From contig JAVEDP010000024.1 of NCBI GenBank assembly GCA_030841085.1, forward strand, positions 1 through 64,000: 64,000 bases of DNA, in the 5' to 3' direction. The notes below the pieces were generated by a model, which was not told where the DNA came from, searched no databases, and saw only the letters and a program-made list of their open reading frames with translations. Of the stretch, positions 45,031 through 64,000 are shown piece by piece. Position 1 is the first letter of the stretch, and every line of letters begins with the position of its first letter. The position numbers and the translations under genes were made by a program. The stretch comes from Pyrinomonadaceae bacterium (GTDB taxonomy: Bacteria; Acidobacteriota; Blastocatellia; Pyrinomonadales; Pyrinomonadaceae).

Positions 45031-45405
45031 TCATGAAACTTGATCTCGCTTTTGTTTGCGGCGAACGGCGCCGCGAGCAGCCGCGACGCTCCTACCATTT
45101 TTCTTGCGCTTTGCTTCCTCAGGTACAAAGGTTACGCGCACCCGCGCGTCAAGGGCGCCGGCAACGCGTCGCAGGTTTGCCAGAGAGTGTCCTTCGTAAC
45201 CGGGCGACTCGAGGCGGCTAATGTGCTGTTGCGAGGTCTTTAAGCGACGAGCCAGTTCCTTCTGCGAAAGCCCAGCCTCCTCTCGGAGAGCGGCGAGCTG
45301 GACCGCTACATCCCAAGCGTCGCCTGCCCGCTGAAAACGAGCCGCAAACGCCGGGTCTTTCATCTGCTCTTTCAGATATTGATCGAAATTAGTTTTTTTC
45401 ATCAC
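45031..45405 (-). CDS. higA: HigA-type XRE antitoxin
   Basis: 124 residues. The helix-turn-helix is LREEAGLSQKELARRLKTSQ then QHISRLES (about residues 37-64), followed by NLRRVAGALDARVRVTFVPE. A basic C-terminal tail (RKKNGR ... RRKQKRD) is unusual for antitoxins of this size. The antitoxin neutralises and represses the upstream toxin. It overlaps the toxin gene by four bases (ATGA), in the toxin-first order typical of HigBA. Confidence 0.88.
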   Translation of the reverse strand: MMKKTNFDQYLKEQMKDPAFAARFQRAGDAWDVAVQLAALREEAGLSQKELARRLKTSQQHISRLESPGYEGHSLANLRRVAGALDARVRVTFVPEEAKRKKNGRSVAAARGAVRRKQKRDQVS

Positions 45406-45752
45406 TTCCCTCTCTTAATCCAATCAGCCATCCGTTCGTGCGCCGTTCGTAGGTCGTGGGCCGGGATAGCCTGGCCTTTGTTTCGAATGGCATGAACCGC
45501 GACGATGCGCCGCCCCTTCATAAAGAACCAAATCACACGTGTGTTGAGTTTGCCTACATGTCGCAACTCGAATAAGCCATCGCCTAGCGCCTTTGATAGC
45601 GGTTCGGCGTGATAGCGCCGGTTTCGCAACTTGCCAAGACCGGCAAGTACCGTCGCAAAGTCGCCCGGATCACTCCGTTTGAGTTCATCCAGGAAGTCTT
45701 GCACCGGACACTTTCCGGCGACAGTTTCATAGAATTCTACACTGAATTCCAT
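45402..45752 (-). CDS. higB: HigB/Gp49-type RelE-superfamily toxin
   Basis: 116 residues, typical length. KCPVQDFLDELKRSD (about 14-28), KALGDGLFELRHVGKLNTRV (about 54-73) and IVAVHAIRNKGQAIPAHDL (about 81-99) match the phage-Gp49-like branch of RelE toxins, ribosome-dependent mRNA endonucleases. The conserved basic residues of the fold (R in ELR, RVIWFF, K in RNKGQ) are present. First gene of the module. Confidence 0.88.
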   Translation of the reverse strand: MEFSVEFYETVAGKCPVQDFLDELKRSDPGDFATVLAGLGKLRNRRYHAEPLSKALGDGLFELRHVGKLNTRVIWFFMKGRRIVAVHAIRNKGQAIPAHDLRTAHERMADWIKRGK

Positions 45753-45822: not shown

Positions 45823-46527
45823 TCACTTCGGCAGCAAACTGCACTGGCTCGGGATGTCGCCATTGAATTCAAAATTGGCGCCTACAACAATTGGTTTGTC
45901 CGAAGTCACTCTTACCGAAATCGCAACGTTAGTGATGCCATCGAAGCCTGGACCACTTGTCGTCGGCATCACCCAGTCAACGTCGCGCGTGTGAGCCGCA
46001 GCCAGGGCGACGGTGGTCGCGCCGGTTTCACCGGGGTAAGTGCGCGCGGGGCTAGAGCCGGGAATGGTGATTCCAGCGAGATTCGTCCCATTTCTATCGA
46101 GAATGTTCACGGCGATATTCGCCGTACTGCTGCTGCCGTTAAAGACGTAAACATCATCACGAGGACTGCCACCCGCCAATGGACGATGCGCAGGCGTGCA
46201 AACCCAAACGTAAGGTGGCCCAACGCCTGATCCGGGAGCGCCGGCAGGTCCTATTGGTCCAGCAGGACCAGCAGGGCCGGCAGCGCCTGCTGGGCCAGTT
46301 GGGCCAGTTGGGCCAGCGGGACCCGCGAGGTTCCACGTCACTCGTTTCTCGTTGTGGCGGCAAGTGGTGCTCGCGTCGACCATTCGCATGTTTCCATTCA
46401 CCTTGTTAACGCAGGCCTCCAGCGTTGGAGGTGGTGGCGCGGTTAGCGCGGTCGGAACTATCAATGCGGAGCAGGCGAGAAAAAATATACTTGCGATTAC
46501 ACCTCTACGGCCAAACTTGCTATGCAT
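45823..46527 (-). CDS. Secreted collagen-like protein
   Basis: 234 residues from ATG 46527, directly behind ggaaggagaaacacc. Signal peptide about 1-29 (ending PTALTAP). A short N-terminal domain contains Cys pairs (EACVNKVNGNMRMVDASTTC). Residues about 71-101 are ten Gly-Pro-x/Gly-x-Ala triplets (GPAGPTGPTGPAGAAGPAGP ...), a collagen-like stalk. The C-terminal beta domain (AISVRVTSDKPIVVGANFEF) is shared with the truncated copy at 44894-45029. Likely a surface fibre or trimeric protein. Confidence 0.85.
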   Translation of the reverse strand: MHSKFGRRGVIASIFFLACSALIVPTALTAPPPPTLEACVNKVNGNMRMVDASTTCRHNEKRVTWNLAGPAGPTGPTGPAGAAGPAGPAGPIGPAGAPGSGVGPPYVWVCTPAHRPLAGGSPRDDVYVFNGSSSTANIAVNILDRNGTNLAGITIPGSSPARTYPGETGATTVALAAAHTRDVDWVMPTTSGPGFDGITNVAISVRVTSDKPIVVGANFEFNGDIPSQCSLLPK

Positions 46528-46819: not shown

Positions 46820-49024
46820 TCAAACGTCAACCAGCGGCAACGAGCGATAGGCTTTGCCGGTCAACTTAGTCAGTGCATTAACGACCGCCGGTGAGATTAC
46901 CGGCACCGGCGGTTCGCCGCAGCCGGTTGGCGCTTCAGCGCTGGGCACGATGTGAACGTCGACTGTGACCGGCGCATCCATAATGTAGGGCGGCACATAG
47001 CCGTCAAAATTTCGCTGCTCAACGCGTCCTTCCTTCAAAGTGATCTCGCCTTTCGCCATTAACTGCGAAAGCCCGAAACCGACGCCTGCCTGAAATTGAC
47101 TCTCAATCGTCAACGGATTAACCGCAACACCACAATCGAGAGCAATCGTCACCCGATGAATTTTCGGTCGATCGTTTTTGATTGAAACGTCGACAGCGCA
47201 AGCGACTCCAGTTCCGAAAGCTTCATGCAGCGCAAATCCGACTGCGTGGCCTGCCGGAAGCCGGCGACGCCAAACAGCGCTCTTTGTATCCATCAGATCC
47301 AGCGCGGCGCGCAGTTTCTTTGCGTCGGGCTTTAATAGTTTGCGGCGATAGGCAATCGGATCCATCTTCGCGCGCGCCGCAAGCTCTTCAATCAACGTCT
47401 CCATTACATAAGCCGTATGAGTGTTGCCCACCGAGCGCCACCAAAGCACCGGCACGTTGATTGTCGGGTTATGGACCGACACGTGAAGATTCGGCAGGTT
47501 GTAATTGGTATCCGCAACGCCTTCGACTGTCGTCGGATCGATGCCATCTTTCATCATCATCGCGAACGGAGTGCCCGCCATAATCGATTGGCCCACGATC
47601 ACGTGCCGCCACGCGGACGGAAAACCATCCGCGCCGATTGCGACTTCGACTCGATGGGCGTGCATGGGCCGGTAATAACCGCCTCGGATGTCGTCTTCGC
47701 GCGTCCAGATTAACTTGACCGGCGTGCCGCGAAAGCGTTTGGCAATAACCGCGGCTTCGCGCTGCACATGTGAATCAGGAACTGCGCGCCGCCCAAAACC
47801 ACCGCCGGCCATCTCGGTATGAAACGTGACTTTCTCCGGCTTCAATCCGAGCACTTGAGCGATCGCCATTTGATCGAAAGTTTGAAACTGCGAACCAGCC
47901 CAGGCTTCGGCGCTGTCGCCATCGAATCGTATCGTCGTGTTCAGCGGCTCCATAGGTGCGTGCGGCAGATAAGGAAACTCATACTCAGCAACGATGAGGT
48001 TCGCTGCCGCAGTGTTCGCAATCGATTTCACGTCGCCAACCGTCTTCGCTACCTTGCCCTCAGTGCGCGCGAGTTGTTTGTAGTTTTCGCGGAGTTGTGA
48101 GCTGTCGGCGTGATCAAGCCCGGTCGCGTCCCAATTAATCTTGAGCAGATCGCGCGCTTGTTTTGCGGTCCAGAATTTGTCGGCGACCACGGCGACGCCG
48201 GAGCCCTTAGCAAGCGGAATCTCAAACACGTCGCGTACGCCCGCGAGTTTGCTTGCCTCCTTATCATCGAAATCTTTCACACGCGCCGCGAAGACTGGTG
48301 GATGAGCAACGACGGCGACTTTCATTCCAGGTTGTTGCAGATCAAGACCAAACTTCAACGAGCCATCGCACTTTGGCCGGCTATCGAGCCGCTTTATTCT
48401 TTTGCCGACGAGTCGAAACTCCGAAGCGTTTTTTAGTTTCACAGTCGCCGGCACGGGCAGGAGCGCAGCCGCGCCCGCAAGTTCCGCGTAGGTCGCCGAC
48501 TTCCCGGCTGGTCCATAGACTCTGCTGGCTTCGGTGCGGCATTGATCCGCGGAGACATTCAAAAGCGCAGCCGCGGCCGCGACTAACATCGCCCGAGTCT
48601 TCGCGCCCAGCTCGCGATACTGCTGGTACGAATGCGCGATGGAACCGGAGCCACCCACCATCTGAATGCCAAATACCGGGTCCCTGTAAATATCCGCGGC
48701 GGGAGCGAGCTCGGAAACAACCTGCGACCAATCGGCGTCCATCTCGTCGGCAAGAATCATCGGCAATGCGGTATGCACGCCCTGACCGAACTCGAGACGG
48801 TTAACCGTGATGTGAATTTTTCCATCGGGCTTGATGTGGACGAAGGCGTCGGGTGGATACGCTTTCGCCGGCGGCTGCTGTCGCTGGTTGCCGGCGCCTT
48901 CCTGCGCAGCCGTAGGCCGATCGAGATAAAGTGAAACTAAGAGTCCGCCCGCTGCGGTTGCGGAGACGCGCAGGAAACCGCGGCGGTTCAGTTGGGTCTT
49001 TTGCTTCTTTGTTGCAGTGGACAT
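46820..49024 (-). CDS. Molybdopterin-binding subunit of an isoquinoline 1-oxidoreductase-like hydroxylase
   Basis: 734 residues from ATG 49024, six bases after aaaagga (an ATG two codons upstream is too close). A Tat signal, NRRGFLRVSATAAGG (about 12-26), marks folded export. The xanthine-dehydrogenase-family large-subunit blocks are present: GQGVHTALPMILADEMDADW (about 85), GGGFGRRAVPD (about 395), the RxxG-type region WWRSVGNTHTAYVMETLIEE (about 525) and GEPPVPVISPAVVNALTKLTG at the end, which includes the catalytic Glu region. It needs the 2Fe-2S subunit encoded next door. The substrate, probably an N-heterocycle or aldehyde, is not determined. Confidence 0.9.
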   Translation of the reverse strand: MSTATKKQKTQLNRRGFLRVSATAAGGLLVSLYLDRPTAAQEGAGNQRQQPPAKAYPPDAFVHIKPDGKIHITVNRLEFGQGVHTALPMILADEMDADWSQVVSELAPAADIYRDPVFGIQMVGGSGSIAHSYQQYRELGAKTRAMLVAAAAALLNVSADQCRTEASRVYGPAGKSATYAELAGAAALLPVPATVKLKNASEFRLVGKRIKRLDSRPKCDGSLKFGLDLQQPGMKVAVVAHPPVFAARVKDFDDKEASKLAGVRDVFEIPLAKGSGVAVVADKFWTAKQARDLLKINWDATGLDHADSSQLRENYKQLARTEGKVAKTVGDVKSIANTAAANLIVAEYEFPYLPHAPMEPLNTTIRFDGDSAEAWAGSQFQTFDQMAIAQVLGLKPEKVTFHTEMAGGGFGRRAVPDSHVQREAAVIAKRFRGTPVKLIWTREDDIRGGYYRPMHAHRVEVAIGADGFPSAWRHVIVGQSIMAGTPFAMMMKDGIDPTTVEGVADTNYNLPNLHVSVHNPTINVPVLWWRSVGNTHTAYVMETLIEELAARAKMDPIAYRRKLLKPDAKKLRAALDLMDTKSAVWRRRLPAGHAVGFALHEAFGTGVACAVDVSIKNDRPKIHRVTIALDCGVAVNPLTIESQFQAGVGFGLSQLMAKGEITLKEGRVEQRNFDGYVPPYIMDAPVTVDVHIVPSAEAPTGCGEPPVPVISPAVVNALTKLTGKAYRSLPLVDV

Positions 49025-49109
49025 GGGCATTTCCTTTTCAGGTTTACCGACCTATCAATTACAGAAACTGGCGACGCAGCAAGACAATAGTTCAAGAGAC
49101 ATAACCTCG

Positions 49110-49187
49110 TGGTTGGGAAGGGTGGCTTGCCCCCGCTCGTTGAATGCAATCCGATCTGAGCGTGGGCAAGCCACCGTTCCTAACTTG
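49110..49187. repeat. Family D inverted repeat (copy D3)
   Basis: gttgggaagggtggcttgcc then cccgctcg at 49111-49138 faces gagcgtgggcaagccaccgt then tccta at 49157-49182. It sits between the two hydroxylase subunit genes, which would otherwise be adjacent in one operon. Confidence 0.88.
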
Positions 49188-49216
49188 GAGCTTACGTTTA
49201 TCGAGTGATCCATTTT

Positions 49217-49681
49217 CTACGTCAAACGCTGCGAAGCCAGGTCGATTGCCTCGCGGATACGCACGTAGGTGGCGCAGCGGCAGATGTTGCCGCCCATCGA
49301 TTCTTCAATGTTTGTTTCAGTTGGTTTCGCTGTCGCTTTTAGTAATGCGACCGCGCTCATGATTTGACCGCTCTGGCAATAACCGCATTGCACTACATCT
49401 TTTTCCACCCAGGCATCCTGGACCACGCGCCCGATCGGATCGCTTGCCATCGCCTCGATCGTCACGACCGGCCGATTGCCCAGCAGCGATATCGGCAACA
49501 TGCATGAACGCGTCGCGACGCCGTCAACATGGACGGTGCACGCGCCGCACGCGCTAACACCGCAGCCGTACTTTGTGCCAGTCATGTCCAACTCTTCGCG
49601 CAACACCCACAGCAGCGGCGTGGAAGGATCAACCGCGACCTCTTTGGGCTGTCCGTTAACGGTCAATTTATAAGTAGCCAT
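49217..49681 (-). CDS. 2Fe-2S subunit of the molybdenum hydroxylase (IorA-like)
   Basis: 154 residues from ATG 49681 behind gaggaggaag. The plant-type 2Fe-2S cluster ligands are in KYGCGVSACGACTVHVDG (about 37-54) with a fourth Cys in TRSCMLPIS. The second, all-alpha cluster domain has QCGYCQSGQIMSAVALL (about 97) and GNICRCATYVRIREAI (about 131). It passes electrons from the molybdenum centre to the acceptor, here plausibly the adjacent c-type cytochrome. Confidence 0.93.
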   Translation of the reverse strand: MATYKLTVNGQPKEVAVDPSTPLLWVLREELDMTGTKYGCGVSACGACTVHVDGVATRSCMLPISLLGNRPVVTIEAMASDPIGRVVQDAWVEKDVVQCGYCQSGQIMSAVALLKATAKPTETNIEESMGGNICRCATYVRIREAIDLASQRLT

Positions 49682-49702
49682 GCTTCCTCCTCAGCGGCGT
49701 AA

Positions 49703-49846
49703 ATCGTGAATCGCCCAACCCGGTAAATCGTGAATCGTAAATCGTAAATCGTAAGAACCGGCAACGATCATTTCCTATCGATCAGATCCGTCACACTCAG
49801 TACTCAGTACTCAGTACTCAGCACTCAGTACTCAGTACTCAGCACT
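49703..49846. repeat. Family H (aaatcgt) and family F (ctcagta) simple repeats
   Basis: 49705-49755 holds several gtaaatcgtgaatcgtaaat units. 49796-49846 holds about seven actcagt/actcagc 7-mers, abutting the cytochrome stop codon. No gene. Confidence 0.85.
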
Positions 49847-49848
49847 AG

Positions 49849-50508
49849 TCATCTCGGGCAAGGCGTGCCGGCATCGACCCAACGCTGCGTCGCCGCAACA
49901 AACTCGTCATGCGTTAGCGGCGGCACGGTGCGCATCGTGCCGTCAGGCCGTCGACCAGGGTTCCAGGCCCAAAGCACCAGCAGCGCTTCCTGATGATGTT
50001 TCAACAGCGCCGCACCATCCATGTTCTCGTTGCGCCGGCGATCAGTCACCGCGCGACAAACGGCGGAGCTCGGCAACGGCCGGTCGTTCGTGTCCTGCCA
50101 GCGCATCGACAACGGCGCGAGATGCCAATCGTGGCCGCCCGGCACACCGGTGCTGTCCGCATTCGCTTCCTGATGGCAAGCGTGGCAGGTAAACGCAGGG
50201 ACGCCCTTGCCCGCCGGCCCACGGATGACGTTCGCAAAATGACGATGTCGATCGTCGCCCTGCTGTGGATAGTTAGTCGCAGTGTGACAGTTAATGCAGC
50301 GCGGATGAGTAAGAACTGAGTACATCTGCTGCCACGCATCAAGGCCCTGCTGGGTGTTGGCGCTTAGCCTGGCCGGGGCACCGGTGCGTGTTGTACGGGT
50401 TGTTTGGCCGGAGGTGACAGAGTACGTGGACCAAATGGCGATTGAGAAAAGAAACGCGAGAATGACGGCGACGGTGCTGCCGGATTTTCCGCGGCGATTC
50501 GACTGCAT
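49849..50508 (-). CDS. Diheme c-type cytochrome-like protein, exported
   Basis: 219 residues from ATG 50508, behind gaggaggatcg; ATGs upstream lack such a site. An N-terminal anchor or signal (VAVILAFLFSIAIWSTYSVT) is followed by two haem-attachment motifs, RCINCHTA (about residue 67) and FTCHACHQEA (about 103). The C-terminal part (VPPLTHDEFVAATQRWVDAG) is a motif seen in cytochrome-like partners of isoquinoline-1-oxidoreductase-type hydroxylases. Haem attachment would depend on the Ccm system in this window. It is the first gene of the three-gene hydroxylase unit. Confidence 0.85.
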   Translation of the reverse strand: MQSNRRGKSGSTVAVILAFLFSIAIWSTYSVTSGQTTRTTRTGAPARLSANTQQGLDAWQQMYSVLTHPRCINCHTATNYPQQGDDRHRHFANVIRGPAGKGVPAFTCHACHQEANADSTGVPGGHDWHLAPLSMRWQDTNDRPLPSSAVCRAVTDRRRNENMDGAALLKHHQEALLVLWAWNPGRRPDGTMRTVPPLTHDEFVAATQRWVDAGTPCPR

Positions 50509-50685
50509 AAACGATCCTCCTCTGCGTTTCGGATCGACTGCTTGTTTTGCCAGTGCAGATTTCTGTTTAGTTAAAACGTATGGCGGAAGTATGTGACTGC
50601 GGAAGGGTGCTGTCAATACTGCGTGAAGGGGCTTTTGCCGCTCTGGCTCAGGAAAGTTTCAACCTGGTGGAGGAAATGAGGAGGA

Positions 50686-50879: not shown

Positions 50880-52103
50880 CTACTCGGCTATGCTGGGTAC
50901 CACTGCTGGCTCACGGTCGGGGAAGAATGCAGGAGTGGCAGTGAGATTCAGTCGCATTCTCTCCCTCATTTCTTCGTCGAGACGTACCGATAGACGCGAC
51001 TCGATATGCTCGATAAGAAACATCAAATCACGACAATAAACAGTCGGAGAGTTGAATCCCAACGCTGGGTGGTAACGATGAGGCACATAACCTCCGCCAC
51101 AGGCCTTGACTAATCTACAGTGTTGACAGGTTTTTGACAGGTTCTCGAATCGTTCAAATCTTGAGGCGACCAAGTGCTCACTGAGAATATCGTTGAAAGA
51201 ATGAGCGAATATGTTCTTTGCGGTCGAGACCGCCCCGTCGTAAGTTGATTTTAGAGAATCGACTGCCTCATATGCTCCATCGGTTTGAACGACGGCCAGC
51301 TGGACCGCAGACAGCCCATAAGACTCAACCGCATGCCTACCGCCGATCATAAGGTGCATTAGGTCTTCAAAGGTTCTTATCTTGATTTCGTGAACATCAT
51401 TGCCCCACCAATGATCGAATACTCGAGAAAGCCATAGGCCGTAACCGTAACCATGGTTTTGATCAAAAGCGGAAGGTGGTGTCCGTTCGTGGTTAAAATG
51501 AGGAAAAAGAAAATCAACTGGAATTCGACCGAACCTCCTAAACCAATTCAAGAGTTCCACCGGGTCGGAGTCCGGCTGAATAACGCATAACAGGCCACCT
51601 TTTATTTCAGCGTACTCTGGCTCAGAGAGTATTTTGATTGCATTCACAACTTGGTGATAAGTGGACTGTCCGCGATGGTCTAATCTGTGCTGATCGTTAA
51701 GCTCCCTATAACCATCGATGCTTATCCCGACGCCGATTTTCAAGCGCAGTAGTAGTTCGGCCCAGCCGTCATCTAGCAGAACACCGTTGGACTGCATGCC
51801 AAATTTGACCGTGCATACTTTTCCCAAAGTCTTTTTGATTTCAGGAACTGCATATTCAAAAAACTTTTTACCAGCTAGCAAAGGCTCGCCGCCATGGAAG
51901 ATAATCGAGATCGACTTCAGATCATGCGCAAGAACATGCTCTCTGATTCTTCGGATCGCTTGGTCGAGGACGTCAATTGACATCCGGGAGGGTTTCGTTC
52001 GCCAGGATTGGTCAGCTAGTTCGTACTCGTAGCAGTAATCACACTTGATGTTACACCTAGCCGCAACCTTTAAGAGGAAGGTTCTTATAAGTGCGTTTTC
52101 CAC
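50880..52103 (-). CDS. FxsB-type radical SAM/SPASM peptide maturase
   Basis: 407 residues from GTG 52103, six bases after the second precursor's stop; aaaggga lies upstream. The radical-SAM cluster motif is ARCNIKCDYCYEYELADQSW (CxxxCxxC, about residues 13-32). The following ADQSWRTKPSRMS is characteristic of the FxsB branch, and IIFHGGEPLLAG is the SAM-binding GGE. The SPASM end has CQHCRLVKACGGGYVPHRYH (about 343-362) and a later Cys (VYCRD) for auxiliary cluster ligands. FxsB enzymes install crosslinks (cyclophane type) in ribosomal peptides. It probably modifies the two peptides encoded just upstream. Confidence 0.85.
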   Translation of the reverse strand: MENALIRTFLLKVAARCNIKCDYCYEYELADQSWRTKPSRMSIDVLDQAIRRIREHVLAHDLKSISIIFHGGEPLLAGKKFFEYAVPEIKKTLGKVCTVKFGMQSNGVLLDDGWAELLLRLKIGVGISIDGYRELNDQHRLDHRGQSTYHQVVNAIKILSEPEYAEIKGGLLCVIQPDSDPVELLNWFRRFGRIPVDFLFPHFNHERTPPSAFDQNHGYGYGLWLSRVFDHWWGNDVHEIKIRTFEDLMHLMIGGRHAVESYGLSAVQLAVVQTDGAYEAVDSLKSTYDGAVSTAKNIFAHSFNDILSEHLVASRFERFENLSKTCQHCRLVKACGGGYVPHRYHPALGFNSPTVYCRDLMFLIEHIESRLSVRLDEEMRERMRLNLTATPAFFPDREPAVVPSIAE

Positions 52104-52109
52104 GTCCCT

Positions 52110-52313
52110 TTACGGAGTATAAGTATCAGAGTGATCCTGGAAAGCGGTATGGTTGACATGAGGTCCGTCCTCAACCTCATTTTCAAATCGCTCCCGCACT
52201 CGCTTGAGGATCTTGTCACCGTCCTGAAACGGGAGATGTGACAGAGACTGAATCTTATTCTCAGTTGCAGGGTCCGTCTCAATCACGCCGTCACTGTGTC
52301 TTGAGTTTTTCAT
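52110..52313 (-). CDS. RiPP precursor peptide 2
   Basis: 67 residues from ATG 52313, two bases after the stop of precursor 1. A leader-like helix (GDKILKRVRERFENEVEDG, about 32-50) precedes a C-terminal core NHTAFQDHSDTYTP (about 54-67). Leader and core both align with precursor 1. It ends six bases before the radical SAM start. No similarity outside this pair is known to me. Confidence 0.75.
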   Translation of the reverse strand: MKNSRHSDGVIETDPATENKIQSLSHLPFQDGDKILKRVRERFENEVEDGPHVNHTAFQDHSDTYTP

Positions 52314-52315
52314 GG

Positions 52316-52516
52316 TTATCCGCTGACATTCGTATGTTCGGTAAACGCGGTGTGATTGTCGAACTCCGTATGTTGTTCAGCAAGGAACCTGTCGCTTTGC
52401 GCACTAAGCTCACTGTCATACCGCAACATCACGCGTTCGAGAATCTTGTTTACATGTTCGACCGCGACAACAGTTTTCGGAGAATCCGGAGCGTTAGTGG
52501 TCGTCGAGGTGTCCAT
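52316..52516 (-). CDS. RiPP precursor peptide 1
   Basis: 66 residues from ATG 52516. The N-terminal 18 residues are Thr/Pro/Ser-rich. A helical leader (VNKILERVMLRYDSELSAQS, about 22-41) precedes the core NHTAFTEHTNVSG (about 54-66). It shares NHTAFxxH with precursor 2, and the KILxRVxxR(Y/F)xxE leader. It is the first gene after a strong promoter only nine bases upstream of the start codon. Confidence 0.75.
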   Translation of the reverse strand: MDTSTTTNAPDSPKTVVAVEHVNKILERVMLRYDSELSAQSDRFLAEQHTEFDNHTAFTEHTNVSG

Positions 52517-52525
52517 AATGCTGTG

Positions 52526-52553
52526 ATTCTAATCCAAGGAGCTTTTTTGTCAA
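52526..52553 (-). promoter_or_regulatory. Sigma-70-type promoter for the RiPP locus
   Basis: On the minus strand, TTGACA (52553-52548), a 16-bp spacer and TAGAAT (52531-52526). The -10 ends nine bases before the precursor 1 ATG, so transcription should start at or within one or two bases of the start codon. No ribosome-binding site can fit, which suggests leaderless translation. Confidence 0.7.
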
Positions 52554-52657: not shown

Positions 52658-53380
52658 CTAGTCGTTAATTCTGCTGCGTAACTCCCCAATGCTAAGCCAC
52701 GTTTGACTCCTATGTAGCATACGGTGGCAGTTTGCGCACACGATGGCGAGATCTGCTAGCCTCGTCCGTCGCGTAGCGTCCGTTGCCGAGAGTGGCAAAA
52801 CGTGATGACACTCTGCGTACCCATCACCAATGGAGCCGTAGAACTCTGAGAAATCGAACCCACAGACCTCACAGGCGAGTTTGCCGAACGCCGCCAGTGC
52901 TTCCCGTTTTTTCCGTCGGACTACCGTAAGATTTCGTTCTCGCCATTTGTGCAAACCAAACAGCAAACGCCCCTCACGAAATTGAAGCCCGTCGTCGCCT
53001 CTACTCTCGATCCAGGCCTGCGCAACAACAGATGGCGCGCTGTTATTGCTAACTCGGATTGCCTGAGCGGTGTTATGAATCAACGACTGATTCGACGCGA
53101 AGTCGTCCCAGACAATTTTCTCCAGGCTCCCACCTCGGCCCAATCCAGCGCCTGGAAACGTGGGATCGAGCCGGCAAAGATTACGAAGCTTCATGTGCAC
53201 ACCACTTGGATTACGAAATGCTGGAGTTCTGGAATTGAAAGGATGAATCGGCAACTTGTTCAAGAATGTGCTCAATTCAACGACCTTAGGCGTGCGCTTG
53301 CTTACCCTCGTCATGTCAACGCTAAAGTAGACATCAAGCAAAAGAATCAGTTCATCGCGTGTCCAGTCAGGATTTTTCAT
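52658..53380 (-). CDS. HNH endonuclease, McrA-like
   Basis: 240 residues. The N-terminal 110 residues (WTRDELILLLDVYFSVDMTR ... GVHMKLRNLCRLDPTF) match the N-terminal domain found in McrA-like restriction nucleases. The HNH site is C-terminal: CEVCGFDFSEFYG (about 171), AECHHVLPLS (about 193) and CANCHRMLHR (about 216), with two CxxC pairs holding zinc. McrA-like enzymes cut modified DNA; recognition here could be of phosphorothioate or methylated DNA given the neighbour. It is 22 bases downstream of the methyltransferase gene. Confidence 0.85.
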   Translation of the reverse strand: MKNPDWTRDELILLLDVYFSVDMTRVSKRTPKVVELSTFLNKLPIHPFNSRTPAFRNPSGVHMKLRNLCRLDPTFPGAGLGRGGSLEKIVWDDFASNQSLIHNTAQAIRVSNNSAPSVVAQAWIESRGDDGLQFREGRLLFGLHKWRERNLTVVRRKKREALAAFGKLACEVCGFDFSEFYGSIGDGYAECHHVLPLSATDATRRTRLADLAIVCANCHRMLHRSQTWLSIGELRSRIND

Positions 53381-53402
53381 ACCAATGTGGCAGTGCCAAG
53401 CA

Positions 53403-54866
53403 TCAAACCGTAACGGTGCGTGAGGTTTTTATCAATCGATGCCCTGAAAGAGTAAACCCTTTGCTGTTCAATACTCTCTCCCATCCGTCTTTTGTCCCGA
53501 TCGACTCAGGGTGTTCATAAAGTCCACACCGTTCTTCTTGTTCAGTAAGTCGTTCGAAGCGAGCACGAAGCGGGTGCCCCTGTGCTAGAAGGGTTTCTTT
53601 TCGGTGGAGAATAAAAGGATTCACCGATTCAGAGTATTCATTATACTTGATGCGAAAGTTGTTTAGCGGAACTACCAGTGAGCCAGCAAGGGCGGGGTGT
53701 GCCGTCTTCTCAAAATCAGGATAATAAAGGTAAGAGATTTGTGGTTTACTTACCTTTAGCTTGATAACGTTTGCGTTCTCGACAGAACCTATGTAGGCGC
53801 GCGCGCAACCCTCATAAACTCGTAACACTGAGGGCAAAGCGGGCAGAGCACTCGCATGTAAGTACAAAGCGTCCGGTAGTCGTTTGCCTACGGATGACGT
53901 CCGACAGGATTCGCTTATGAGTTCCCTTTTGCCCGCAGAGAATAATAACTGGTCTGCTAGCTCACAGGCCTTGCGGTAATTTGGGAAGAACGCCCGAACA
54001 TCTAACTGTAAATCGCGCGGGAGTTGAGAGAATCTAGGGCGCCCCGCGAAACGAGATAAGGCGAGATAAACCAAAAGATCTTGTGTTCGCTCCTCACGAA
54101 TCACCGCCCATTGTTCTGCGCCTGTTACTTTACGAATTATCGCGAAAGCTCGCGGTAGACTACCGATTTTTTCGCGAATCAAGTCCGCGACCGCGATCTC
54201 AGACTCATCGGGGAGACGGCCGCGAACCGTCAAAAAGCCCGTGAGAACGTCAAAAAGTTCGCTGTACCGCTCAAAAATTAGGTCGCTAAAGCGCTGCCGG
54301 GGAATTGCTGTTTTTCTTCTGTATCGCGAAGCATCAAAGGATTGCCGCAGCTCACTATCTCGGAATACGTAGAAGATGCCTGGCGCAATAGCCAGACTCT
54401 TAACATCTAATACGTCATCAATCCAACCGCCCAATTCGTGTTGGTCGTAGAACTTCTGAAATGTTCCTCGACTAGTAACGCAACCGTCTGAGTAAGGACT
54501 GCACAGACCTGAGCGGTTTGCCTCCAATGACAAACGAGCCGATACAATGAGGACTTTTTGAGTTAGAGACCATGCATCTTTTAAGACGTCGATACGCTCA
54601 GCCACGTCTTCGATTACATTAACTACATACCCTAAGTTAACAACATCAGCCGACCGTCGTTTACTCTCGGGCCGATGTAGCGGGTCCCAACCATCTACAT
54701 CAACTCCTTGCTGGTTGAGCCGACGAATGTCATCGCCCCGCCCACAGCCGTAATCAAAAACTGACGTGGACTGAGTGAGCAATCCGTGTTCGAGAGCTAA
54801 CTGAATTGGCCGAGAAAACTCGATTCGTTTTATGGCTGTTTTTTGCCTCTGGACGGATAGCCTCAC
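53403..54866 (-). CDS. DNA phosphorothioation-associated putative methyltransferase
   Basis: 487 residues. SVFDYGCGRGDDIRRLNQQG (about 39-58) is SAM motif I; VDVDGWDPLHRPES (about 58-71) and ADVVNLGYVVNVIEDVAERI (about 74-93) complete the Rossmann core. ALSRFAGRPRFSQLP and the long helical C-terminal part match the putative methyltransferase family found beside dnd clusters, recalled from the TIGR04096 group. The dndABCDE genes are not in the window. It heads the operon with the HNH gene and is divergent from the Mrr-type gene, with 116 bp between. Confidence 0.78.
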   Translation of the reverse strand: MRLSVQRQKTAIKRIEFSRPIQLALEHGLLTQSTSVFDYGCGRGDDIRRLNQQGVDVDGWDPLHRPESKRRSADVVNLGYVVNVIEDVAERIDVLKDAWSLTQKVLIVSARLSLEANRSGLCSPYSDGCVTSRGTFQKFYDQHELGGWIDDVLDVKSLAIAPGIFYVFRDSELRQSFDASRYRRKTAIPRQRFSDLIFERYSELFDVLTGFLTVRGRLPDESEIAVADLIREKIGSLPRAFAIIRKVTGAEQWAVIREERTQDLLVYLALSRFAGRPRFSQLPRDLQLDVRAFFPNYRKACELADQLLFSAGKRELISESCRTSSVGKRLPDALYLHASALPALPSVLRVYEGCARAYIGSVENANVIKLKVSKPQISYLYYPDFEKTAHPALAGSLVVPLNNFRIKYNEYSESVNPFILHRKETLLAQGHPLRARFERLTEQEERCGLYEHPESIGTKDGWERVLNSKGFTLSGHRLIKTSRTVTV

Positions 54867-54982
54867 GCTCTATATCCTAACTCACCAGAATAATAAAACC
54901 CGAGAAGTAGCGGCGTGGTTTGCTCTAAATTCCGCCGGACGTCGACCGATGTATATTTAAGCTTTGAAAGAGCGAGTTGCTT

Positions 54983-55852
54983 ATGAAAGATTTATCGCCC
55001 TCCTATGACGCCGTGGAGCTTACAGTCGATGGATTTATTTTGCGCGACGACGACTCCGACGAAGATCAATACATTGATGCCTTCGACTGGGCCATCCTTC
55101 CCGATTTTGATTTGTGCGTTTACTGCTCGCATCGTCTCGTAAAGGTCGAAGGCGAAGAGCAAGAAGACGGGCACCTACTAAGGGACTACTGTCTCTGGTA
55201 CTGCCGAAACTGTAGGTTTTGGCAGTCCCGGATTTATTCTGATCCCTACGGTGGTTGTATGCCAGGACCTGATAATTGGGCCTACATTTCGAAACTTCGC
55301 GAATTTCCCGGGGAGATACCAGACGGCTGCTCCAGCGAGTTCGCGTCATTCATAAGACGTAATCCAAATTTCCTGCACACATGCGACCCAACAAAGTTTG
55401 AAAAACTGGTCGCCGATGTCTTTAGAGCCAATTTCAAGAATAGCGAAGTTATTCACGTCGGTAAGCCTGATGATGGCGGCATTGACGTCGTCATGGTAGA
55501 CAGCGAGACTCAACAATGGCTAATTCAAGTCAAACGCCGCGGATCGGGGAGTGCATCGGAGGGTGTTGCGACAATTCGCGACATGTTAGGTTCAATGATA
55601 CTGAATGGGGCAGCGCAGGCAATTATCGTTTCGAACGTGAATCAGTTTTCGTTGCGAGCCAAACAAGCGACGGACAAAGCAAGGGGTCTCGGGCTGACAA
55701 TCCGGCTCGTCGACAAAGGCATTCTAAATCGAATGCTGGAGCCCGTGTTACCTGATAGGCCTTGGTTAGGGCCTATTCGCTCGGTCGACGAAGTTTTGGC
55801 TGCGCGACTCGAGCAAGAGATTCCTAGCGATCCAGAAATGCCGTTATGGTAG
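54983..55852 (+). CDS. Mrr-type restriction endonuclease with N-terminal zinc ribbon
   Basis: 289 residues from ATG 54983 (a TTG two codons earlier is less likely). A zinc ribbon lies at about residues 52-85: CVYCSHRL and WYCRNCRFW. The Mrr-type PD-(D/E)xK domain (about 145-275) has FEKLVADVFRANF, GKPDDGGIDVVMVDS with the catalytic Asp, and WLIQVKRRG with the Gln-x-Lys. RLVDKGILNRML closes it. The fold cuts DNA, often modified DNA. It is on the opposite strand to the genes on both sides and is convergent with the receiver-like gene (40 bp). Confidence 0.86.
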   Translation: MKDLSPSYDAVELTVDGFILRDDDSDEDQYIDAFDWAILPDFDLCVYCSHRLVKVEGEEQEDGHLLRDYCLWYCRNCRFWQSRIYSDPYGGCMPGPDNWAYISKLREFPGEIPDGCSSEFASFIRRNPNFLHTCDPTKFEKLVADVFRANFKNSEVIHVGKPDDGGIDVVMVDSETQQWLIQVKRRGSGSASEGVATIRDMLGSMILNGAAQAIIVSNVNQFSLRAKQATDKARGLGLTIRLVDKGILNRMLEPVLPDRPWLGPIRSVDEVLAARLEQEIPSDPEMPLW

Positions 55853-55892
55853 TGCGATTAGCCGACAAATAAGGAGAGGCTAAGAGGCCTAT

Positions 55893-57818
55893 CTAATCCT
55901 GCCTCGCATCATCGACTTCAAGCTCAGGAACTTCTAACTCAATGATTAACGGGCCATAGTCCCCCTTGATCACTCTCTCCTGATCAATTGGGTTCTTCTG
56001 GGGATCAACGTACGGTCCGACAACGGTAACGATATCGTAGCCCGAGTTTTTGAATGCTCGCTCTAATCGATCTCGTGAATAGGGGATTCCTTCTTCCATC
56101 TTCGAAAACAGCTCTCGCTGCTCTACGGAAGTTCGCCAACTTTCTCTTAGCTTCTCAGGAAGAGTGTCACTATCGACCTTAACCATCGCAACGCGAAGTT
56201 TCCCCACAATATCTGGGGCCAATATCAATCGGTCAATCAGAGCGTTCGTGCTTCGACCGATTAAAACAACAGCGCTTTGATCAGCAGGTTTAACAGAAAT
56301 CAGTTGATGTAGTTTTCCTTCATGATCTTTGTACGAAACTGTCGCGCCGGCGGCATGCTGCATAGGCGGCAGTACTGGCGTTCCAACCCGTGATAAAGAA
56401 CTTGTAAACAATTGTTGAAGCTGAATCGAAAAGGTAGATCTAAAGCGACGAACCCTCTGAAAGTTGTCGGACTTAATGTGGTTTGCCAGTTCACTTCTCG
56501 TCCACGTGACTGGATTGCCTAAGTCCCACTCGATAACATAATCTTTGCCGTCGTGAAATAATATTGGCGTCACCAACTCCTTGGGTTTTTTGTGAAGTAA
56601 TAATTCTGAGGGGCGTGCGACCCCAGTAATGAATAAGAATCGCTTTGCGTAGTCGTGCTGTAAATCACAAGCGGGTGTCAAGACAAGCAGGGCAATTCTC
56701 TCCCCCTTAGCGAACTCAACTACAGGCGCTACTCCTTCACCTAGAGCATCAACCCTCGTGGAAAAGAGTACCTCCCCAAACTCAAGGTCGAGATGCGCAA
56801 GTATCTTTGAACTTCGAAACAGCATCCCATCAGCAATACTGGCCGAAGCGGACGACGGCAGGAAATGAGGTGCCGGATAGTCGTCCCATTGCATCTCATT
56901 GAGTTGTAGCGCCGCAGTAGATAACCTCGTATCCTCTTCAAGTTCAAACTGAAAGTATTGTCCAAACACTTCGAGTAGATAGGCACCAATCAATTCTCCT
57001 TCGGCATTAAGTATGAGTGTATGCAGATCGGCATAATCCCGTAGATCCAGAAGGCGAACTGTCTTTAAGAACCTCGCCTTCGCGTCTTCTAGGGCTTTGC
57101 TCCACAACTCGAGAAAACCCGTTAGCTGTAATGTCTTGCGATAGGAAGAGGTGATCCGATAGAGAACTTCCTGCAGTTCAGGTGATTCCTCAAGCAATGT
57201 CTTTCGCATTGTCCGAAATTGAGAACCTACCAGTTCGGCTTCATCACGGAACTCGTCTTTCATGTCTTCTAAGCGAGTGCTCGAAGACATTAAAACAATC
57301 ATCGGCGGCGCTTCACGTCTGGGCGCGACTATTTCCTTCACTCGATTCATTGCTTTATCCCGTGCTTCCTGATCTTGTCGCGCACCGAGAAACAGATCTA
57401 CAAATATCAATTGCGCTTCAGCCGCTTTGCCTAATTGCTGTGAATCATAGGTGCCGCCTTGGAGAGTGAGTTCCTTAAATAAGAGATTGCTCAAAGGCTC
57501 CAGCTGTTTCTTACCTGCATTTTGGCGTGCGTCATACGAAGCGAAGAGAGCTTTAACCACACCACTTTCGTCCCTGCGATCCCATAAGAATTTCACGAAG
57601 GTGTCGTCTTGCTTTAGCTCTTCCAACCTGGTTTCTGCGTTGGTTATTCCGTAAGTTCGGAGAAGGTTGATTTCCGGCTCTGACAAGTCGTCCTGAAAGA
57701 AATTCCACGATTCCGCCTCGATGTCGGCGGATGACGGGATCTCATCATAAACATCGTCGATTATCGCTGCGGTAGTAATACCTTCGCGCGTCAATATTTC
57801 TCGCAATTCTTTAATCAT
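55893..57818 (-). CDS. Receiver-like protein with large unknown C-terminal region
   Basis: 641 residues. Residues about 15-220 look like a response-regulator receiver with an insertion: TAAIIDDVYDE (acid pair at about 20), AQLIFVDLFLGARQ with the candidate phospho-Asp at about 141, and MIVLMSSSTRLEDM with the conserved Ser/Thr at about 174. Residues 220-641 match nothing I know; LALVLTPACDLQHDYAKRF-type (RIALLVLTPACDLQHDY, about 372) is a notable conserved-looking segment. It overlaps the kinase gene by eight bases, so it is the probable output partner of the kinase. Confidence 0.7.
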   Translation of the reverse strand: MIKELREILTREGITTAAIIDDVYDEIPSSADIEAESWNFFQDDLSEPEINLLRTYGITNAETRLEELKQDDTFVKFLWDRRDESGVVKALFASYDARQNAGKKQLEPLSNLLFKELTLQGGTYDSQQLGKAAEAQLIFVDLFLGARQDQEARDKAMNRVKEIVAPRREAPPMIVLMSSSTRLEDMKDEFRDEAELVGSQFRTMRKTLLEESPELQEVLYRITSSYRKTLQLTGFLELWSKALEDAKARFLKTVRLLDLRDYADLHTLILNAEGELIGAYLLEVFGQYFQFELEEDTRLSTAALQLNEMQWDDYPAPHFLPSSASASIADGMLFRSSKILAHLDLEFGEVLFSTRVDALGEGVAPVVEFAKGERIALLVLTPACDLQHDYAKRFLFITGVARPSELLLHKKPKELVTPILFHDGKDYVIEWDLGNPVTWTRSELANHIKSDNFQRVRRFRSTFSIQLQQLFTSSLSRVGTPVLPPMQHAAGATVSYKDHEGKLHQLISVKPADQSAVVLIGRSTNALIDRLILAPDIVGKLRVAMVKVDSDTLPEKLRESWRTSVEQRELFSKMEEGIPYSRDRLERAFKNSGYDIVTVVGPYVDPQKNPIDQERVIKGDYGPLIIELEVPELEVDDARQD

Positions 57819-60189
57819 TGGATTGAGGAAGTTCCAATACGAAGGTGTTCAAGCGATTGGGGTGCACGGTATTCTCGTCCGACAAGTAGAGTTCAGCATC
57901 GTTGTAATGCGCACACTCGCGAGCGATATACAGGCCTAGTCCTTGTCGACGTCGACGGTCTTTGGTGGAAAAGAATGGTCTGAATACATCTTCTTTTAAG
58001 TCGCTGCTAATACCGGGACCATTGTCTTCAAAAAATATCTGACGCATCTTGGAGTCGACGACCACTGTAATCTTTGGCACAAACGAGTGATCTTCATCAG
58101 CTCGCCGTTTTAACCAGAAGACCGAATTCGAAGTCAAATTCTCTATGATCTGAACGTACATTCCTTTTACCCCGGTGACATCCAAGCGTCGCAAGCCTTT
58201 GGTTTTTAGCTGCGTTTTTAGCCGGTGACGTTGGAACTGCAGCTCATGTCCCTCAAAAATTTCTTCAATGAGGCTCACTAGATCGAATGTTTCACGACGC
58301 TGCCGTCCTGAGATACTTAGTGGATCGAGCACTCTCAGTCGCTTATTCATCGTTTTCATTTCGGCCCGTAATACCTTGAGCGTCGAGGCAATATTTCTAG
58401 GCAGGTTTTCTGTTTCCGCGTTTGCCAAGGACATCATTGCAGTCTCAGTGGATCGCGCCAATTCATGAGCAATAACTTCAAGCATCAGACCTATTCCAGC
58501 CAGCTGAATCAGTCGAGATCTTTCGTCTTCAGCCTGTTCTGCGAGTGCACGAGCTTGATCAAAATATTGTTTCATCTGATCAAATATTTCTTGCACGTCT
58601 TGTAGTTCAAGGCTGCTCTCAGGATGTCTGCTTTTTAATTGACGGATCGCCTGTCGTGCACGTGAATCAAACGCGGAAATACGTTCCTCAACTTGATCGA
58701 AATCAATTTCCACATGCCGTTGGCTACGATTGACCTCATCCATGAAATTCCGCAATAAGTTTTGAGTCACGTATCGAAGAATCTCAACAAAGACGTATTT
58801 TTCCGGAGTTTCTTTCAATCCCTCCCTATTCGTTTGGTCTATGAGGTCTGGATTTCCTAAACGGGAAATCTGCACCCGACCAATAAACTGGGCTTTATTG
58901 AGTTTATATCCAGGCGAGGCAAGCGCCTTACGATCCAATCCCAACCAATCGTCCTTATCTTCCCCGTACGGCAGCACGCGATACCCATCACGAAACAGCA
59001 TGATTCCTGACCAACGACGCTGAAGTTCTCGGACAGTATTGAGATTGCCGATAGAATCAATTCCTCGCAATTTTTGACGGTTGTACCAGTACGCCTCATA
59101 TTCGAAAGGGCCAACGGTATTAATTGCGTAGGCCGGAATCTCCTCATTTGCGTCGTCCGTCAAAACGGACAAATCAATGTTCGCGAAATGTAAATGTTTA
59201 TCCTCCTTCCTTTCCGGGCCTTTAAAAGTCATTTCTACGTCAAGAGATGGTGCTCCTCGACGGATCTTGTAGGACGCTTTCACCGTCGCATGAGCAGCAG
59301 CTAGGATCTCTCTGTCCATCCTCGGAATCTCAACTCGTTCACTGTTGAAAAAAATTGCAATTCGGAACCGGCGTTTTCCAAGAGAAAAGGGATCTGACAA
59401 TTTAGCGAATTCCCTTATTGCGATGTCCCTTATTCTGCGGGGCGACCAATTCCCTTTGAGGCCCGATATCTTGATATTCGTTCCGCTCCACTCCTTGCTT
59501 GGTTTTGGGCTTCCTATAGTCGGCTCAATGTCGATGTCTTGCAGATCCAGATCAAGGTCTTCGAAACGTCGCCAGTCTATCGTTAACTCGTTAAGGTTCT
59601 TTTCTCGCTCAGTCGCCGATTCCAAATACAGCATCCAACCAAGCCTCATAACGGACAGCCGTCCAACGCCTTTTTCGCCCAAATACGGAGAGGCTGGTGC
59701 TGCTCCGTTCCCGCTCGCCGCAAACTTAGCCTCTGCAGCTTCTATTTCCTTTTTTCGAGCTGGTGTTCCGATAACGAGATACTTTGTTTTAATGTCATCA
59801 GCGGACATCCCACTCCCGGTGTCTCGAATGTCGATCCAGTTAGTTTCGGAATAAATCCCTGGCAGCCTCTTTTTGAGAATCGGCAATGTCTTACAGAGCG
59901 CCAACTCGTGCTTAAGCCTGTTAAGGGCATCAGGCTCCGCCGTAGGCTCCGCATTGACTAAAAGCGAATCTTTTATTTCGTCAACCGGTCGAGGTTTGTC
60001 GCCGTCCAGTTCTCGCATCACTTCTAAGAAGCTGCTGTAAGACAGGCAAACGTGTAAAAGGATGTCTACGCCGGTCTTCGATTTCGCGTCGATGGCGTTC
60101 TTTACAAGCTCATAGATCGCCACTTCATCAGAGCTGATGAGCTCCGAACCAAGTTGTAGAACCGTCCTAGCGGAAACACGAAAATGCAT
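57811..60189 (-). CDS. Histidine kinase with additional N-terminal MORC/HSP90-like ATPase domain
   Basis: 792 residues with two GHKL ATPase modules. The N-terminal one (about 1-230) has AIYELVKNAIDAKS, DTGSGMSADDIK and YLGEKGVGRLSVMRLG, as in HSP90/MORC/MutL-type ATPases. The C-terminal one has ENLTSNSVFWLK (N box), FFEDNGPGISSDLKEDVF (G1) and RRQGLGLYIAREC (G2). Just before it, LMLEVIAHELARSTETAMM (about 565-583) resembles the phospho-acceptor H-box, with His at about 573. There is no membrane segment, so it is a cytoplasmic sensor. A coiled-coil stretch (about 470-550) joins the parts. Confidence 0.8.
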   Translation of the reverse strand: MHFRVSARTVLQLGSELISSDEVAIYELVKNAIDAKSKTGVDILLHVCLSYSSFLEVMRELDGDKPRPVDEIKDSLLVNAEPTAEPDALNRLKHELALCKTLPILKKRLPGIYSETNWIDIRDTGSGMSADDIKTKYLVIGTPARKKEIEAAEAKFAASGNGAAPASPYLGEKGVGRLSVMRLGWMLYLESATEREKNLNELTIDWRRFEDLDLDLQDIDIEPTIGSPKPSKEWSGTNIKISGLKGNWSPRRIRDIAIREFAKLSDPFSLGKRRFRIAIFFNSERVEIPRMDREILAAAHATVKASYKIRRGAPSLDVEMTFKGPERKEDKHLHFANIDLSVLTDDANEEIPAYAINTVGPFEYEAYWYNRQKLRGIDSIGNLNTVRELQRRWSGIMLFRDGYRVLPYGEDKDDWLGLDRKALASPGYKLNKAQFIGRVQISRLGNPDLIDQTNREGLKETPEKYVFVEILRYVTQNLLRNFMDEVNRSQRHVEIDFDQVEERISAFDSRARQAIRQLKSRHPESSLELQDVQEIFDQMKQYFDQARALAEQAEDERSRLIQLAGIGLMLEVIAHELARSTETAMMSLANAETENLPRNIASTLKVLRAEMKTMNKRLRVLDPLSISGRQRRETFDLVSLIEEIFEGHELQFQRHRLKTQLKTKGLRRLDVTGVKGMYVQIIENLTSNSVFWLKRRADEDHSFVPKITVVVDSKMRQIFFEDNGPGISSDLKEDVFRPFFSTKDRRRRQGLGLYIARECAHYNDAELYLSDENTVHPNRLNTFVLELPQSND

Positions 60190-60302
60190 AAAAATAAATT
60201 AGCCGATTACGAAATCAATCAGGAAGGACACCTGTGCCCTTCCTGTTATCATCACGCCATTTTCACTATTCACGTAGTAGTATCTCGCAAGCTCTTTCGT
60301 TT

Positions 60303-63300
60303 TTAGGTATTGGTTTGGATCCCTTCAGAGATGGCGCGGACCGCCCTCTCCATAAATTCGCTCTCAACAAATGGCACTTGAGCATACGTGAGTGGTGCGC
60401 CTTCAAGCTTTGCCAGGAGATGTCCTCGACCGAGCAATCGCTCAGCTCCTTTTTCACCTAATGCGATATCCGACGTTCCTTCAGAGTCAACGCGCAAAAT
60501 TAGCCGGTTTCCTAGGTTGGATCGTAACTGCATCGGCATGACATTCGCATCCGGTCTTTGGGCTGCGAAAATCAAGTAAATGCCGGCGGCCCGTGCCTTG
60601 ACGCCCAGCCGTCCAACTAATGCAGTTACCTCCTCTTTGTAGTCATCGACCATCATCCATTCAGCAAATTCATCATGTATCACCCAAATGACCGGGAGGC
60701 GCTCGTTCGGCGAAACATTCCGGTTATAAACCATTAGACTATTGGCTTTTGCGCTCTTGAGCTTACCGTAACGTCTGTCCATTTCAGTCACCAGCGACCG
60801 TAGCTTTTCAAGGGCGACATTCTGCTCATCTATCACTCCACCGTCCAGATGCGGTAAGTCATCAAAATGAAAATAATCGACGCCTTGTTTAGGATCGATA
60901 AGCGTTACTCTCGCTTGCGCTGGCGTATTTGTAGCAGCTATCGCCAGAATTATGTTTTGCATCAGCACGGACTTCCCGCTTCCAGTCGATCCCGCAATCA
61001 AAGTATGAGGAGCATGTTCTCTAGCCGGAGAAATAAACAGCAAACTTCCGTCGTCCTCCCTTACTGCTATTAGCAACTCCTGATTACCATCGGTGGAGGA
61101 TGGCTGCCATCGTTGCCATACATCTTGAAGGAGAATAACTTTCCGGCGTTCGCGTTCAACTGAAATTGAGACAAGTCCAGGTTCTGGACGGACCGCAATT
61201 AGATTCAGCCCATGAGTGGTCAAGAATTCCGAGCGGCGCTTTAGTACCTGGTCTACCGTAAGGTTTGCACTTCCCTCGAACTTCAACAACGCCGAGTTGG
61301 GCGTCAAAATGCTGCTTAATAACTTGGACCGTAACTGGAATTGTTGAAGAGCGCCTTTCGTTCTACCTTCGACTTGCTTGAGCCAGGCTAAATCTTCAGA
61401 TGAATCCAACTGTTCATTGACTTCGGGTGAAAGTAGTTGGGTTATCTGCGGGAATGCCCATGATCCGTGGCTTTCCGATGCTTGAACTACGGGAGTAAAC
61501 TCAATCGCTGAGTCGGGCGCGGTTGGCTCTTGCTCGATTGGGGCCACCAGCTCCGCATCCGATTCTTTTTCGGCTGGCAGAATCTCCTCAGGGGCGGGCT
61601 TCGTTACGGCACCCGAAGGCCGGCGGTAGACTCGTTTCTTCCAGGCATTACTATCCGCCGCTTTCTCACGAACCTCAATGGGATCTTGATCGGAGTAATA
61701 CTTCATCACGAGTTCACGCACGCGCGACCTCCCAAACACCTCTTGATATGAGTTTTCTAGGTCAGCGACCTCAACGAAATCTGATGAGTCTGGAGCGTCG
61801 CTAGGACCAGAGACAAAAACGTGTGAATAGCCTCTGACGAAAATGTCGCAGTTACCCTCACGTATCGCTCGTCTCCAATCAGTTAGACTGAGGTTCGCGC
61901 TTGCCGGGAAGCGAATTCCGTCTAGTATCAGATCGGACAGTCTTGACAGCCAAAGATCTCGATCCAGACGTTCTGGGTTTCCGAACAGAGCGTCATTGAT
62001 TCGCTTAACTGTATCCCGGAGTTGCTTTTGTGATTCCTTACTCTTGGCCGCGACACTTGCCGCGTCAATGTATTTCGCCTCAGTAATTATGACCGCCAAT
62101 TGCAACGAACCTTTTGCGTCCAGTTCAGGACTGAGAACAAGAATGTCAGCAGTTTGTTCTTCGCGTTGGCCCAACCAGTCGGCGTAATCGTCGAGGAAAT
62201 ACCAACCCAAATACTTATCGGTGCCCAACTCATGCTGGACTAAGAATCTGCTGAGGACAACACCCATCAACTCACTGGCATTCCGTCCACGCTTCGCAGC
62301 ACGAAGAACAATGTCACCCGAGATGTCTTTGGCATCATTTATGAACCGCTCAGATAGTGCCTTAAGGCTCGATTCATCTAGTTCTAAGTTCAAAGCCTTG
62401 ATCCGGCTCAGCACCATCGACTGGAGCAAGCCTAACGGTGCTTTCGACGAGATTATTAGATTCCGGCCATGAGTAGATGAGTGTTTATATCGAATTACGC
62501 GAACATCTTGGTTAAGTAATTGTCGTCGGTCTAGTAGCTCGTCGTAGTTTACAACCCAATTTCCCAAGTTATGAGTTTCCTCGAAGATTCGCGCCGTCGT
62601 ATTATCGCGAAAATCCAGTTGCCGAGCTGGCAGAAGTCTCTGACCTTCGACGCCATCCCAGTTCCCCTTAACAAAAGTAGTTAGAGCTGTTAGATAGGCC
62701 CAACCTTCTGCTGTTTGAACGGGACAGCAAAGGTAAACAACAGACTTCATGTCATCAAAAGCTGCCGGTCGTCGTTTAGACCATCTGGCAGGGACAAATG
62801 AATTTCGGACTGCGGGCCGCGCATTTTCCAAAAACCATTCAACCCTCGCATGTCGGGCTATGACGTCTTGCGAGAAAACTATGTCCGTCGGAAGGCCTTC
62901 CTTCTTCGATGGCGGCGGTGCCTGATCGGCCATGATGCCAATCCTGAGTCGCGCCATGAAGTCTCGGGTGGCCTCGCTGGCATTGAAGCTGTCCGCATCT
63001 CCGTCTGAGGTTTCAACAATCTTCTCGTACAAACTACGAAGCCGTTTTGGGTCTCGGTGCCTAAGGATCACCTGACATCGGATCTCGTCTTCCAATTCGT
63101 GAAGCGCACCAATCTTCTCGACCACCGCTTGCGGCAACCGTGCTGAGTCACAGTTGTAAAGTACTATTTGCAGATTGGCTTGTTCGTGAGGCTGCAGCTC
63201 CAGATATCGTTGCACCAATTCAACAACTTGGCTCGCAGCTTCGGCTGGGTTTTCATTGGTATCGTCGATCCCGTCATTGCTGATGGTCGGAAGCTCATGC

Positions 63301-63998: not shown

Positions 63999-64000
63999 TC

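Follow-up and report, generated by a model that had tools for sequence, protein, structure and literature searches.

Our analysis indicates that the Pyrinomonadaceae sequence studied here (64,000 nucleotides, hereafter the window) probably carries a minimal triceptide-type RiPP unit, in which two small peptides, P1 and P2, would be the substrates of an adjoining FxsB-family radical SAM maturase that may close up to five cyclophanes in the one and four in the other (Table 1). The genes run P1, P2, maturase along the minus strand, with gaps of 2 nt between the precursors (junction TAA-CC-ATG) and 6 nt before the maturase (TAA-AGGGAC-GTG). All three frames are intact and tightly spaced. This confirms the layout described in an earlier, sequence-only reading (two frames of 66 to 67 residues, 2 nt apart and 6 nt from a radical SAM gene), to which we add the strand. 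Given the short distance from the sigma-70-like site to the P1 ATG, a transcript would be nearly leaderless if the site is used; the regional count of such sites is not above that in shuffles. A scan of the stretches surrounding the cassette found neither tRNA genes nor Rfam elements.

Table 1. Coordinates of the cassette, its surroundings and related loci (positions refer to the window unless another sequence is named)
Feature	Location	Strand	Remarks
Candidate precursor P1	52316-52516	-	66 aa; leader KILERVMLRYDSEL, core HTE-FDN-HTA-FTE-HTN-VSG
Candidate precursor P2	52110-52313	-	67 aa; leader KILKRVRERFENEV, core HVN-HTA-FQD-HSD-TYTP
Predicted radical SAM peptide maturase, FxsB-family	50880-52103	-	407 aa, GTG start
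Sigma-70-like promoter TTGACA-16-TAGAAT	52526-52553	-	11/12 match; 9 nt between its end and the P1 ATG
Oxidoreductase operon	46820-50616		three genes
Ssp phosphorothioation defence set	window 52658-64000 and G000:C22 60303-74229		missing from the corresponding site of three relatives
Overlapping gene pair	55893-60189	-	between Ssp genes and Mrr nuclease
Likely toxin-antitoxin pair	45031-45752	-	
Protein with collagen-like repeat	45823-46527	-	repeat GPAGPTGPTGPAG
Long FxsB-type precursor	L054 1721-2863		Rhizobium plasmid
Long FxsB-type precursor	L202 986-2884		Rhizobium plasmid
Precursor beside FxsB-type maturase	L188 2702-2920	-	Bacteroidota
Precursor beside FxsB-family maturase	L199 1889-2233		Streptomycetaceae plasmid
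ORF upstream of FxsB-type maturase	L206 946-1386		contig classed viral

P1 and P2 are diverged duplicates under selection at the protein level. They align with a BLASTP E value of 7e-5, and only the leader KILxRVxxR and the core NHTAFx[DE]H are conserved between them. Six residues of NHTAFxxH are common to both, and five of the six codons differ synonymously, which argues for selection acting on the protein. Exact matches to NHTAFx[DE]H occur twice in the window and never in 100 shuffles of it; elsewhere in the 4.69-Mb genome there are none, both genomic matches being P1 and P2 themselves. Chance is a very poor explanation of these motifs, and the matching leader and core that the earlier reading had noticed are real. 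It could be argued that the two frames encode regulators or arose by chance next to the maturase, as short ORFs are common and no curated precursor family matches these; the synonymous divergence at the conserved motifs, the duplicate architecture, the leader match and the triads described below make this very improbable.

Within the common leader, I-L-x-R-V is the motif of YhhA and HaaA precursors. When a position matrix was built from YhhA and HaaA leaders only, leaving out the window peptides, its best site was KILxRV in both P1 and P2, with scores reached in 1 of 20,000 shuffles for P2 and in 444 of 20,000 for P1, the P1 score being weak by itself. A small ORF with Omega-x-x triads often lies upstream of related maturases; for several of these enzymes no triad peptide was found there. 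Gene order, a leader of the family type and a triad core make it very likely that P1 and P2 serve as maturase substrates, in support of the earlier proposal.

Read in threes, the P1 core contains five consecutive His/Phe-x-x triads and the P2 core four, a series that, judged from sequence, marks substrates of three-residue cyclophane (triceptide) formation. The earlier description of NHTAFxxH followed by variable tails thus holds for the motif but not for the extent of the core, which is wider and forms a continuous period-3 His/Phe series. A run of five was reached in 35 of 200,000 shuffles of P1 and a run of four in 820 of 200,000 shuffles of P2, two tests that are not independent, since part of the core is common to both peptides. 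Among about 30 related loci, the P1 run is the longest and the P2 run equals the longest found elsewhere. Like triceptide loci, this one pairs Omega-x-x precursors with a radical SAM enzyme of the cyclophane-forming type.

Enzymes that form three-residue cyclophanes join aromatic residue i to the beta carbon of residue i+2, and the published crosslinks run from Trp to Arg, Asn or Asp, from Phe to Asn or Ser, from Tyr to Asp or Arg, and from His to Ala or Arg (PMC11002830). The His-Thr-Ala of P1 and P2 hence corresponds to the His-x-Ala link made by HaaB and ScaB; His-x-Glu, Phe-x-Glu and Phe-x-Asp links are absent from the crosslinks reviewed in that article. The chemistry is most likely of this known type, with C-C links from i to i+2 and a loss of 2 Da each, so that the earlier suggestion of a possibly new product class was too strong. 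TIGR04269 moreover covers precursors other than the F-x-S type (HaaA-type, with YhhA a close sister), and crosslinks of the kinds His-x-Ala, His-x-Arg, Phe-x-Asn and Phe-x-Ser are published. The core thus resembles ordinary triceptide triads, in a run of unusual length.

In the mechanism that we propose, the I-L-x-R-V leader of P1 and P2 would be recognised by the maturase, and a 5'-deoxyadenosyl radical would abstract a hydrogen at C-beta of the third position in each triad. This carbon would then bond to the first residue's aromatic ring, yielding a three-residue cyclophane. Up to five consecutive rings could form in P1 and four in P2, at -2.016 Da per ring; the unmodified C-terminal tryptic fragments have calculated masses of 2631.163 Da for P1 (FLAEQHTEFDNHTAFTEHTNVSG) and 2885.216 Da for P2 (FENEVEDGPHVNHTAFQDHSDTYTP). 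The reaction, its positions and the role of both peptides as substrates are what we infer here from characterised relatives.

It is a real possibility, if short of an even chance, that only one or two triads are closed (e.g., HTA and Fx[DE]), with the other histidines serving, for example, in metal binding and the period-3 run being partly incidental. Only NHTAFx[DE]H[ST][ND] is common to both cores, the outer triads differing, and many relatives have one to three triads, as partial closure would lead one to expect. Against it, the P1 register extends two triads further upstream, both peptides keep the register downstream and five triads in a row are rare in shuffles. At the other extreme, we entertain only tentatively, and consider rather unlikely, a new triceptide family in which a single maturase closes every triad, giving up to five back-to-back cyclophanes of alternating His and Phe (with links from His/Phe to Glu, Asp and Asn); the product would be a rigid rod derived from two paralogous precursors, and a phosphorothioation defence island would carry it as cargo. 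P1 and P2 might also be substrates of a different radical SAM/SPASM reaction, given that the reaction type is not readable from sequence alone and that no relative found shares more than 40% identity with the enzyme. Any outcome other than an Omega-x-x cyclophane is nevertheless improbable for an enzyme that scores above the FxsB cut-off and branches among cyclophane formers; thioether (ranthipeptide) chemistry in particular was rejected, as the core contains no cysteine.

Profile and tree place the enzyme among the FxsB-family radical SAM peptide maturases. Its score of 395 bits with TIGR04269 (NCBIfam FxsB) exceeds the curated cut-off of 370, and its 371 bits with the YhhB model fall below the cut-off of 445. 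The cluster motif CNIKCDYC is intact, and C17, C21 and C24, as well as the C-terminal cluster cysteines C326, C329, C335 and C357, are invariant in the alignment. The ADQSW segment, present as YELADQSW, is shared with ChlB and with FxsB/YhhB-type relatives and hence marks the branch. The FxsB type assigned before is borne out. In a 39-row tree, the maturase falls into a clade with actinobacterial FxsB/HaaB-type and YhhB-type enzymes (support 98/96), on a long branch of its own, to which a Paraburkholderia protein is weakly sister (91/83). Its best identities to relatives are 39 to 40% (40% in plasmids), and in close-homologue searches of five phylum-level samples no identity exceeded about 36%. 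Among solved structures, the radical SAM domain of ChlB comes closest (PDB 9gm3, 282 bits). A viperin identity was rejected, the PADLOC match reflecting the shared radical SAM core only.

Comparison with named systems shows both shared and differing features. FxsB-family loci (TIGR04269), among them the HaaA/HaaB-type loci of actinobacteria, share the family model, the clade and a small upstream precursor, whose leader VVLDRVAVRV resembles KILxRVxxR; the window cassette differs in having two precursors, a core that is neither FxSxx nor HaaA, and no TPR, TIR/AP-ATPase, zincin or acetyltransferase partner. YhhA/YhhB (NF041705 / NF041707), from a close sister clade, likewise combine an LxR(L/V) leader with multiple His-containing triads. 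Their core follows Y-x-R..H-x-R-H-N-R (e.g., YDRMHHRHNR), whereas that of the window reads His/Phe-x-(N/D/E/A), and the cassette has neither an HExxH fusion nor a 2OG oxygenase next to it. ChlB (PDB 9gm3, 9gmc), named a multiple cyclophane synthase in the title of a cited work, aligns end to end with the same cysteine layout and ADQSW segment; it belongs to the fused radical SAM-HExxH proteins, whereas the window enzyme stands alone. A Bacteroidota locus (L188) has four unbroken Omega-x-x triads (WTQHSSWTKHSK) and a maturase 35% identical to ours, but uses Trp/His rather than Phe/His, a GG-type leader and other third-position residues. FxSxx-COOH / VMAP-type conflict systems have cores ending in F-x-S-x-x and zincin and TIR/AP-ATPase neighbours (PMC7159879). 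Such neighbours are absent here, and a plain F-x-S peptide was rejected because the cores end in HTNVSG and HSDTYTP.

Related FxsB-type loci offered observations of their own. Two Rhizobium plasmids encode very long precursors whose cores repeat MHDQTHSE or MHGQTHSS many times; a radical SAM gene and a separate HExxH gene come after them. The Bacteroidota precursor has no NCBIfam match. The Streptomycetaceae plasmid precursor carries about six GFSS(Y/H)V repeats, and a 146-aa ORF with SYNSFS and SYNGF segments lies 2 nt upstream of an FxsB-type maturase on a contig classed as viral.

On present evidence, the P1/P2 precursor family looks new, a singleton within a known enzyme family. Neither peptide matched the precursor families of NCBIfam, Pfam or PHROGs. 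The cut-offs of the YhhA/YhhB models (NF041707, NF041705) were not reached, with no match for the precursors, and the HaaA model NF041708 gave none either (control L198, 101 bits); YhhA, HaaA and XyeA control precursors match their own models strongly. The search for the NHTAF core beside FxsB homologues, proposed in the sequence-only reading, returned this genome and no further locus: no other case of NHTAFx[DE]H next to a homologous maturase turned up in about 85,000 species genomes and 2.9 million viral contigs, in a scan of the exact motif on contigs of at least 3 kb that may miss homologues with drifted cores. The motif's 112 genome and 11 viral stretches were rejected as chance frames, none lying beside an FxsB homologue. 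Narrow single-protein patterns matched nothing in the genome and viral contig scans, tblastn with P1 found no relative in plasmids, and no further precursor copy was found in the genome. Of 162 genomes from the class, this one alone carries the maturase, apart from one YhhA/B-type locus at 35% identity. Homologues without NHTAF, which the same reading had taken as grounds for refutation, do exist (all relatives, at 30 to 40% identity). They have different precursor families within the same enzyme superfamily, which confines the NHTAF family to one known genome and leaves the RiPP interpretation standing.

The absence of an adjacent protease or transporter, remarked upon earlier, was borne out, and no HExxH/2OG hydroxylase adjoins the cassette either; a finished, exported product is therefore not evident. 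This lack of partners, together with the occurrence in a single genome of the class, could point to a decayed or orphan remnant, with an intact maturase and a cassette that is unexpressed or deprived of essential partners. Three intact, tight frames, conserved catalytic residues and a strong promoter-like site upstream argue otherwise, and several YhhA/B loci also lack an adjacent dedicated protease or transporter, so we consider a remnant quite unlikely.

Within an accessory island of low GC, the cassette forms the outermost same-strand unit. To its left lies the oxidoreductase operon, kept at 65 to 82% identity in three relatives, in which no island gene follows it; from the operon side into the island, GC falls from 0.541 to 0.488. 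The island comprises SspB, SspC, SspD, SspF, SspG, SspH, a TIGR04096 phosphorothioation-associated methyltransferase, an HNH protein and a divergent Mrr-type nuclease (for the SspABCD-SspFGH system, see PMC8092258). The overlapping pair within it is a candidate uncharacterised defence pair; one gene encodes 792 aa with GHKL ATPase/histidine-kinase-like domains, the other 641 aa with no Pfam, NCBIfam or PADLOC match. Beyond the operon, a Gp49/HigB-like phage-derived protein (116 aa) overlaps a helix-turn-helix antitoxin (124 aa), a likely toxin-antitoxin pair by eye, next to a protein with a collagen-like repeat.

In actinobacteria, FxSxx peptide systems are known to lie beside conflict systems (PMC7159879), and the place at a defence-island edge may hint at a role of the cassette against phage or in conflict between strains. 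Because the partners that define FxSxx conflict systems are missing here, this role is only a lead. The position at the Ssp island edge likewise offers a lead, though no evidence, on how cyclophane peptides may figure in conflict systems. The cassette itself would add a precursor family with dense, continuous ring-forming triads. With two peptides and one enzyme, it forms a small, easily testable set, useful for asking how a radical SAM enzyme iterates along its substrate and tolerates varied third residues.
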